This document shows positions 39,365 to 60,969 of a DNA stretch of 64,000 nt, piece after piece (the first letter of the stretch is position 1; the number at the start of each line of letters is the position of its first letter). Position numbers and translations under genes: made by a program. The stretch spans positions 1,426,001-1,490,000 of the forward strand of contig NZ_CP062229.1 in assembly GCF_024707545.1 (NCBI RefSeq), in the 5' to 3' direction. Under the pieces are notes generated by a model that saw only the letters and a program-made list of their open reading frames with translations, did not search any database and was not told the DNA's origin. Source of the stretch: Mesorhizobium onobrychidis. Lineage in GTDB: Bacteria > Pseudomonadota > Alphaproteobacteria > Rhizobiales > Rhizobiaceae.

Positions 39365-39441
39365 TGGTGATCCCGACAGGAATCGAACCTGTGACCTACA
39401 GATTAGGAATCTGCCGCTCTATCCTACTGAGCTACGGGACC
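39365..39441 (-). tRNA. tRNA-Arg (anticodon CCU)
   Basis: A 77-base cloverleaf including an encoded CCA. The acceptor stem is GGTCCCG/CGGGATC with one G-T pair. The D-arm is GCTC/GAGC, the anticodon loop TTCCTAA (CCT) and the T-arm ACAGG-TTCGATT-CCTGT. It reads AGG codons. It is a typical integration target, and the decayed island lies on its 3' side. Confidence 0.95.
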
Positions 39442-58890: not shown

Positions 58891-59592
58891 CTACAGCTTC
58901 GCGCCGGTTGCCGCAGGCCGGGGTCCGCTGGTCGCGATCCAGATGACGTGGCGCGCGCCGCGCTTGCCATTGGCGCGGACCTTGACTTCCTCGACCGCGA
59001 AGCCTGCCTGCCTGAGCCTGCGGGTAAAACCGCTGTCGGGTCCCTGTGACCAGACCGCCAGCACGCCGCCGGGCTTGAGCGCTGCTCTCGCGCTGATCAG
59101 CCCGGCTATACTGTAGAGAGCCTCGTTGGCCTTGTGGACGATCCCTTCCGGACCGTTGTCGACGTCGAGCAGGATGGCATCCCAGGCCGAGGCTTCCGAT
59201 CGTATGAGCTGCCCGACGTCCATTTCGCGAACAGTCAGGCGCGGATCGTCGAGACAGCCGCCGAACACCGCCGCCATCGGGCCGCGCGCCCACGCCACGA
59301 CGGCGGGCACCAACTCGGCGACAACGACACCGGCATCGGCGCCAAGCTCGGCGAGAGCGGCGCGCAGCGTGAAACCCATGCCCAACCCGCCAATCAGGAT
59401 TTTCGGCTGGCTACGGCCGGCAATCCTTTGGCAGGACAGCCTGGCCAGCGCTTCCTCGGAGCCGCTGAGGCGGCTGTTCATCAGCTCGTTCGAGCCGAGC
59501 ATGATCGAGAATTCGGTGCCGCGTTGTTTCAGGCGAAGCTCGTGGTCGCCGTCAGGCGTTTTCGCGGTATCGAGCTGGACCCATGGGATCAT
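58891..59592 (-). CDS. Spermidine synthase-like methyltransferase-fold protein
   Basis: A 233-residue Rossmann-fold protein. The nucleotide-binding motif is ILIGGLGMGFTLRAAL near residue 65, with acidic VVVAELVPAVVAWARG and ILLDVDNGPEGIV near residue 145. It resembles spermidine-synthase-like proteins that lack an obvious polyamine site. The stop is 33 bp after the convergent neighbour. A repeat begins 15 bp upstream of its start. Confidence 0.75.
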   Translation of the reverse strand: MIPWVQLDTAKTPDGDHELRLKQRGTEFSIMLGSNELMNSRLSGSEEALARLSCQRIAGRSQPKILIGGLGMGFTLRAALAELGADAGVVVAELVPAVVAWARGPMAAVFGGCLDDPRLTVREMDVGQLIRSEASAWDAILLDVDNGPEGIVHKANEALYSIAGLISARAALKPGGVLAVWSQGPDSGFTRRLRQAGFAVEEVKVRANGKRGARHVIWIATSGPRPAATGAKL

Positions 59593-59655: not shown

Positions 59656-60335
59656 TATGCCGCCAGTGCCGGCTGGCTCCAGCGGGCGGCAAGCAGCCGG
59701 TAGGGGATCAGCGCCACCACGGCGATGATCAGCTTCACGCCGAGGTCGCCGAGTGCCCATGACACCCAGCGCATGGTCTCGAGCGACAGCACGCCCATCA
59801 GCGGCGCGGTTTCGAGCGCGAAGCCATCGTTCGGGCCAGCGAAGGCGAAGGCCGCCGAAAAAGCGACGGTGAAGAACACGGCGGTGTCGAACACCGAGCC
59901 GACCAGCGTGCCGACGATCGGCGCCCGCCACCAGCTCTGCCGGCGCAGCCGGTTGAACACGGTCACGTCGAGCAGTTGCGCGATCAGGAACGCGGTGCCG
60001 GAAGCCGCCGCAATGCGCACCAGCCGGTCGGCGGCCGTTTCGAATTCGATCAGGCCGTAGCGGAACAGCAAGGGCGGGATGACGACCGAGCAGATCACCG
60101 CCGCCGTGAAGCCGACAAACACGATCCGGCGCGCCACGGCCGGGCCGTAGCGGCGGTTGGCAAGGTCGGTGACCAGGAAGGAGAACGGATAGGTGAAGGC
60201 GCCCCAGGTCAGAATGTCGGCCAGCGACAAGCCGCCGATCGCACCTTGCAGCGGGAACTGCACGAGGATGTTCGACGCCACCACGACAAGCGCCATGGCC
60301 GCAACAAAGGGCAGATATCGGGAGAAAAAACTCAT
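59655..60335 (-). CDS. yhhQ: YhhQ-family queuosine precursor transporter
   Basis: A 226-residue membrane protein of the VUT/YhhQ family (DUF165) with about six helices. Characteristic segments are LTWGAFTYPFSFLVTDLANRRYG and VGTLVGSVFDTAVFFTVAF. YhhQ imports preQ0/preQ1 for queuosine in tRNA. It is 81 bp downstream of rpmB, and that gap carries a candidate preQ1-I riboswitch overlapping its start codon, which supports the assignment independently. Confidence 0.9.
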   Translation of the reverse strand: MSFFSRYLPFVAAMALVVVASNILVQFPLQGAIGGLSLADILTWGAFTYPFSFLVTDLANRRYGPAVARRIVFVGFTAAVICSVVIPPLLFRYGLIEFETAADRLVRIAAASGTAFLIAQLLDVTVFNRLRRQSWWRAPIVGTLVGSVFDTAVFFTVAFSAAFAFAGPNDGFALETAPLMGVLSLETMRWVSWALGDLGVKLIIAVVALIPYRLLAARWSQPALAA

Positions 60336-60362
60336 TTTTTTATCCTGGGTAATGGAACCAGC
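60331..60362 (-). promoter_or_regulatory. Candidate preQ1-I riboswitch over the yhhQ start codon
   Basis: Read on the minus strand: CTGG (60361-60358), loop TTCCATTAC, CCAG (60348-60345), then GATAAAAAAATGAG. This is the preQ1-I layout: a short stem, a C/U-rich loop, C before the 3' strand, and an A-rich tail. Loop CAT (60354-60352) can pair with the start codon ATG (60335-60333) as the pseudoknot P2. Ligand binding would hide the ATG and stop translation of the transporter. A search with the RNA family model is needed to confirm. Confidence 0.7.
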
Positions 60363-60365
60363 GGG

Positions 60366-60390
60366 GTGTCATGCCGAGTTCGGACGACAC
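60366..60390 (-). terminator. Hairpin between rpmB and the riboswitch
   Basis: An imperfect stem: outer arms GTGTCGT and ATGACAC (one G-T pair), inner CCG and CGG around AACT. It follows the rpmB stop by 26 bp. No T-run follows, so it may be a weak terminator, an RNase barrier or part of a longer leader structure. Confidence 0.4.
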
Positions 60391-60416
60391 TCCTTGGAAG
60401 GCGGTTGCCTGAGAAA

Positions 60417-60713
60417 TTAAGCGGCCGGCTGTTCGACAAGCTTCTTGGCGATCTGCTTCTTCAGCAGGCGCGCGCGCTGCGACAGCTCCTTGGCGTCGGC
60501 CTTGGCCAGGAACGCATCAAGGCCGCCGCGGTGCTCGACCGAACGCAGCGCGTTGGCCGAAATGCGCAGGCGCACGTTCTGGTTCAGCGCTTCCGAGATC
60601 AGCGTCACATTGACGAGATTCGGCAGGAAGCGACGCTTGGTCTTGTTGTTGGCGTGGCTCACATTGTTGCCGGACATGACTGCCTTGGCAGTGAGTTCGC
60701 AGGTGCGGGACAT
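60417..60713 (-). CDS. rpmB: 50S ribosomal protein L28
   Basis: A 98-residue L28: [20 protein letters not shown] then [20 protein letters not shown]. Basic throughout, standard alphaproteobacterial length. It is a core large-subunit protein. The yhhQ gene follows on the same strand. Confidence 0.97.
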
Positions 60714-60969
60714 GGTTCTAAACCTTCAGTTCTCGGTCTGGCCAAACATTCGACCCGCGCCGGGTGGCGCGCGGTTTCGGTCAGGCGGCCTTATGGAAAA
60801 AGTTGGCGTTCCATAGTTGCATTTCGCCGATGCGTCAAGCTCCGGCTTGCGCGCGGGTGTGACGACGCCTTTCACATAAAGGCCGGAATTCAGCCTATAA
60901 GCGGTCGCACAAGGAGATACCAGGCCGGAGTTGTCCGCTTCCGCTGAAAATCGAGGATCAATCCCCGCC

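Follow-up and report, generated by a model that had tools for sequence, protein, structure and literature searches.

A 29-nt element that ends in the start codon of yhhQ in Mesorhizobium onobrychidis is, in our judgment, very probably a class I preQ1 (preQ1-I) riboswitch that is closest to type III and would control the translation of this gene; this reading comes from sequence comparison. The element lies on the minus strand of the window (the whole stretch of 64,000 nucleotides analyzed here), where it runs from 60361 to 60333 as CTGG-TTCCATTAC-CCAG-GATAAAAAA-ATG, its 3' end being the start codon itself. We established its sequence, the gene that it precedes, its conservation throughout the family, the match of its loop to that of the Escherichia coli type III riboswitch, and the matched changes between two clades.

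The element and the genes around it

The first-pass annotation had proposed a CTGG/CCAG stem, a TTCC-containing loop, and an A-run tail before yhhQ, with a loop CAT complementary to the ATG start and a position between rpmB and yhhQ. All these parts are present (Table 1); the complementarity was confirmed in the sequence, and an 81-nt gap separates the end of rpmB (60417), on the same strand, from the ATG of yhhQ. A descriptor consisting of a 4-bp stem, TTCCxTNAC, and AAAAx'G (x and x' being paired) occurred once in the 64 kb, both strands taken together, and this single occurrence was the element.

Table 1. Features of the element and of the neighboring genes (window coordinates)
Feature	Position	Strand	Basis
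yhhQ, queuosine precursor transporter, 226 aa	59655..60335	-	ORF, TIGR00697, and Vut_1
rpmB (L28), same strand, upstream	60417..60713	-	Profile matches; upstream in 109/109 loci
Whole element (P1, loop, A-rich L3, start codon)	60333..60361	-	Conserved in 147/150 family loci
P1 5' strand, CTGG	60358..60361	-	Complement of CCAG
9-nt loop, TTCCATTAC	60349..60357	-	Sequence
Loop CAT, proposed P2 5' strand	60352..60354	-	Complements ATG in 147/147 motif-bearing loci
C in loop, counterpart of E. coli C14, the ligand specificity base	60349	-	From PMC10622847
P1 3' strand, CCAG	60345..60348	-	Sequence
AGGA, likely Shine-Dalgarno, 7 nt before ATG; its AG within P1	60343..60346	-	Sequence
L3, GATAAAAAA	60336..60344	-	Sequence
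A in L3, counterpart of E. coli A27, which reads preQ1	60336	-	From PMC10622847
ATG start codon of yhhQ, proposed P2 3' strand	60333..60335	-	Sequence and ORF

The yhhQ product matched the NCBIfam model of the queuosine precursor transporter, TIGR00697, at 108 bits (cut-off, 50.95) and Pfam Vut_1 at 99.4 bits; with the narrower model NF008406 it scored 123.9 bits, below the cut-off of 252 bits. The genome of the window has one copy of yhhQ. The gene is a known target of type III (PMC10622847) and is found under various preQ1 riboswitches (PMC5372724). The element was preceded by rpmB on the same strand in all 109 family loci checked, with a stop-to-start distance of 53-252 nt. Downstream of yhhQ, the product of an ORF at 58891-59592 (minus strand) is weakly similar to polyamine aminopropyltransferase models, far under their cut-offs, and has no Pfam match.

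The genome of the window encodes both QueF (105.4 bits) and TGT. TGT gave matches in all 49 family genomes tested (48 over the cut-off), and QueF was over the cut-off in 24 of 48. Because QueF is patchy while TGT gives a match in every genome tested, many family members may depend on imported or salvaged precursor, which suggests that reliance on salvage is frequent in the family. A correspondence between loss of QueF and loss of the element was also considered; no clear link was seen among 48 family genomes.

A hairpin, GGAGTGTC...GACACCCC, lies directly before P1 at 60363-60393 (minus strand), and its foot is able to pair with UGG of P1. The fold of the window prompted us to consider such an anti-P1 pairing as a common feature; its probability exceeded 0.5 in just 17 of 85 leaders, so it is not general. 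Many relatives have hairpins of different sequence before P1, some with a T-run resembling an rpmB terminator (for example, L148 and L116). A promoter and terminator scan found neither. In folding calculations that allow nested pairs only, the 4-bp P1 had a probability of 0.09 in the leader of the window and above 0.5 in 27 of 85 leaders.

Conservation in the family and searches outside it

An open pattern, in which seven loop bases and the first base of the start codon were left free, matched 248 of the 297 genomes of the GTDB family to which the window belongs. Among the matches listed, the 48 that were tallied all had loop CAT and ATG, and the reversed pattern, used as a control, gave one match (G160) among the matches listed; one genome (G557) had two sites for the open pattern. 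We examined 150 family loci, with some genomes counted twice, and 147 had one site each, in 22 variants, all with CAT facing ATG; the three without the element were L133, L137, and L151. Included in the 150 were 40 leaders chosen for diversity, 37 of which had the element, and 80 named loci, mostly from Mesorhizobium, all of which had it. We also examined nine genomes left unmatched by the pattern: seven contained versions of the element with small indels, and two lacked it. CAT/ATG is invariant within the family, where it shows no covariation, and in none of the family loci did the element occur with a GTG or TTG start.

The per-column information content, calculated for 64 of 67 leaders selected by a loose pattern, was 0.7-2.0 bits (mostly above 1.5) from P1 through the G of ATG, and 0.04-0.48 bits in the 34 columns before the element and 0.03-0.52 bits in the 15 columns after it. 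Conservation ends at both borders of the element, and CTGGT and CAT, which are upstream of AGGA, are conserved too.

The loops of the family include UUCCAUNAC, UGCCAUNAC, and UGGCAUNAC, with C or U possible at position 13, and two genomes (L263 and L266) have a 10-nt loop, UGGCAUCAAC. The specificity C before the P1 3' strand is present in all 147 loci, having been fixed there by the pattern, and the seven indel variants have it too. Rhizobium-type loops have changes at U7 and C8 and, in some cases, at A13, and UG instead of UU follows the P1 5' strand. Because U7, C8, and A13 shape the pocket in E. coli, the Rhizobium-type pocket must differ in detail, and these changed pocket bases are the main doubt about the ligand and the subtype.

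By eye, the element was absent from 26 yhhQ leaders from other families of the order. An order-level pattern matched 24 of 297 genomes, and yhhQ was found only in the loci of eight genomes of the genus of the window; a class-level pattern matched 24 of 385 genomes, and yhhQ was found only at the locus of the window itself. Both patterns require TTCC, so UG-type loops would escape them. A covariance model built from 15 family sequences (R2) gave one match at E ≤ 1 in the genome of the window, at 53.8 bits. In a phylum search with stricter filters and 29 candidates scored per genome, R2 gave matches at E ≤ 1 in 87 of 244 genomes; ten family genomes scored 48.0-53.8 bits, all others scored 28.1 bits or less, and none of the 20 background loci examined contained yhhQ. 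No intermediates were found in these sampled searches beyond the family.

Relationship to the type III riboswitch of E. coli

The type III preQ1-I riboswitch of E. coli yhhQ is known from a crystal structure, in which P2 consists of U11-A28, C10-G29, and C9-G30, U7-A27-preQ1 and C8-A28-U11 form triples, A13 contacts U11, and C14 (C15 in wild-type numbering) is the specificity base; it prefers preQ1 to preQ0 by about 138-fold (PMC10622847). AAGG lies within P2 of type III (PMC11625349). The distribution of type III is almost exclusively gammaproteobacterial (PMC10622847), and preQ1 riboswitches in general are mostly limited to Firmicutes (PMC3766115).

The loop of the window copy, TTCCATTAC, and that of E. 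coli, UUCCCUCAC, are of equal length and identical at 7 of 9 positions. One of the two differences is at the variable position 12, and the other is A10 in place of C10, with a matching U29 in place of G29 in the tail (AAUG in place of AAGG). Because A10 is matched by U29, the Shine-Dalgarno AAGG of P2 in effect becomes the start codon AAUG. UU, AC, and a short pyrimidine-rich loop, which are features of type III, are present in the window copy, and the AAGG tail is absent; because the tail is AAUG, we file the element as class I and type III-like, not as type III.

A phylum-level pattern with the loop and tail of type III fixed matched at least 63 places in 54 of 349 genomes. Thirty of these loci together with E. 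coli yielded 19 distinct elements of the form GGG-TTCCCTNAC-CCC and AAAAAGG, the sameness of loop and tail arising by construction, since the pattern fixed both, including C10 and G29. A YhhQ-like ORF followed each of the 19 elements, as judged by eye.

We counted pairs in 27 distinct sequences (11 from the family and 16 gammaproteobacterial; linkers were cut, and L116 and repeats were omitted). P2 forms in 100% of cells and the 4-bp P1 in 97.2%. In three pairs, 3-19, 4-18, and 11-27, both bases differ between the clades; two of the three are among the four pairs of P1. In the observed register, 98.4% of cells were paired, 30 cells had both bases changed, and the covariation score was 0.397; none of 500 shuffles reached any of these values, and with slid registers there were fewer paired cells and less covariation. 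The changed-pair and pair-type counts, two of the five covariation measures, were no higher than in the shuffles (487 and 494 of 500). Because the 27 sequences represent two clades only, each pair change amounts to about one event. The change in P2 likewise counts as one event between the clades, since CAT/ATG is constant, no GTG or TTG was found, and C10 and G29 of the gammaproteobacterial elements are fixed by the pattern; U29 is dictated by ATG. As for the compensatory changes that the first-pass annotation had suggested looking for, there were thus none in CAT/ATG within the family, but C-G is replaced by A-U in P2, and P1 is changed on both sides, between the clades.

A covariance model of the 19 gammaproteobacterial sequences (R1), run against 47 family loci of our choice, matched 19 times at E ≤ 1, always at the element; the window copy scored 8.2 bits (E = 7.2), ranking third in the window after two unrelated places. 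R2 gave poor matches only in the 19 gammaproteobacterial loci, the best one being off the element. Because the window copy scores weakly and R2 gave no reciprocal match, the link to type III rests on the loop identity and the matched changes and not on model scores.

With the preQ1 models of Rfam, no match was obtained in the window at the gathering score, in 60200-60800 even at E ≤ 10, in the whole genome at E ≤ 0.001, or in 20 relatives. The sole Rfam match at the gathering score in the window is a tRNA at 39368-39441 (minus strand). RF00522 (release 15) also left the E. coli yhhQ leader, which contains the structurally solved type III riboswitch, unmatched at E ≤ 10. Because the same library misses this verified element, the negative result for the window is uninformative, and a match to RF00522 is not a valid defining feature of the preQ1-I class; a missing Rfam match is little evidence against type III-like preQ1-I riboswitches. 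Of the two findings that the annotation had said would count against it together, the lack of an Rfam match was thus observed, as in E. coli, but the CAT/ATG complementarity was kept in all 147 motif-bearing loci. Its reading of a preQ1-I riboswitch whose pseudoknot takes in the start codon is supported by the match to E. coli type III, the changes between the two clades, and the conservation in the family.

Proposed mechanism, alternatives, and known systems

P1, the loop, the A-rich tail, a loop and tail capable of forming P2, the specificity C (C60349), and the neighboring yhhQ are features of class I, as seen in the sequence and the two-clade pair counts, the fold being predicted. We infer the ligand, the fold, the OFF direction, and control at translation as follows. 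Without ligand, the pseudoknot would be open or short-lived, and the ribosome would use AGGA and AUG. Abundant preQ1 would sit between P1 and P2, pair with C60349, and hold the tail against the loop, with C60354-G60333, A60353-U60334, and U60352-A60335 as the proposed P2 pairs. The start codon would then be paired beside the pocket, with half of the Shine-Dalgarno sequence in P1, so that 30S binding would be blocked and no transporter would be made; rpmB, which lies ahead of the element, would not be affected. The annotation had the switch locking the start codon itself. AUG does lie in the proposed P2, but the Shine-Dalgarno sequence is not outside the fold: because AGGA (60346-60343) overlaps the P1 3' strand, both would be masked.

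We also lean, with less assurance, towards regarding the element as a fourth preQ1-I subtype across the Rhizobiaceae-type family of the window, in which the complete ribosome-binding site would be the aptamer: the Shine-Dalgarno sequence would lie in P1 and L3, the spacer would be the A-tract, the start codon would form the P2 strand on the ligand side, and the base before it would read preQ1. Such a subtype would be a very small natural aptamer: most members measure 28-29 nt, compared with the 36-mer of E. coli. With one matched base-pair change, the same ligand-binding knot would come to cover the start codon instead of the Shine-Dalgarno sequence, and a large group of plant-associated bacteria would gain preQ1 control of precursor uptake that is invisible to Rfam.

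Efficient ribosome-binding sites often have an A-rich spacer and AGGA at its usual distance, and the CAT/ATG match is only 3 nt; the element might then be an ordinary, strongly kept site with a chance hairpin. The conserved CTGGT and CAT, however, sit upstream of AGGA, and the absence of the element from the 26 yhhQ leaders of the other families of the order also argues against this explanation, to which we give hardly any weight. A short and almost invariable stretch that covers the start region and occurs beside one gene would fit an operator as well, at which a protein or a small RNA, and not a metabolite, controls the translation of yhhQ. We consider this highly improbable because the element resembles the type III aptamer in detail and shows a matched change in P2, and we know of no protein or RNA of that kind. 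The element could instead be a preQ1-I-like pseudoknot that uses the start codon in the same way but senses a related compound, such as preQ0, queuine, or another guanine-like base. The pocket bases U7, C8, and A13 of E. coli vary in the family, QueF is over the cut-off in only 24 of the 48 genomes, and YhhQ transports preQ0 and preQ1 in E. coli and, in others, queuine (PMC11570991). This alternative is unlikely, though less so than the other two, since U6, C9, U11, the specificity base (C14), and the A-tract remain unchanged, the window copy retains U7, C8, and A13, and E. coli type III strongly favors preQ1 over preQ0 (PMC10622847).

The preQ1-I riboswitch that we propose shares with E. coli type III the same gene, a pyrimidine-rich 9-nt loop, UU after P1, AC before P1', an A-rich L3, and a 3-bp P2 that keeps C9-G30 and U11-A28. 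It differs in the tail, which is AAUG (start codon) and not AAGG (Shine-Dalgarno), in A for C10 of the loop, in a P1 of 4 bp and a shorter L3 (29 nt against the 36-mer), and in being alphaproteobacterial with rpmB ahead of it. We found no description of a start-codon variant in the literature covered, which lay outside McCown 2014 (reportedly the study that defined type III) and most subscription papers and preprints. Neither 'start codon' nor 'AUG' occurs in the available wording of PMC10622847 and PMC11625349, and the element is not described in the available parts of PMC11570991 and PMC13273304.

Likeness to type II (T. tengcongensis) consists in the class I pseudoknot and in the UGGCAUCAAC loops of L263 and L266, which are similar to the type II loop with its G8, C9, A10, and AAC; the window copy has a type III loop. 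Type II works by termination or hides no more than the first bases of the Shine-Dalgarno sequence (PMC11625349). Start-codon occlusion is not itself new, because other switches, namely the add adenine switch and the T-box, hide AUG together with the ribosome-binding site in a sequester hairpin (PMC10907184). Like these switches, the present element would make the start codon inaccessible when OFF; in them, however, AUG belongs to a separate expression platform, whereas here it is a predicted strand of the aptamer itself.
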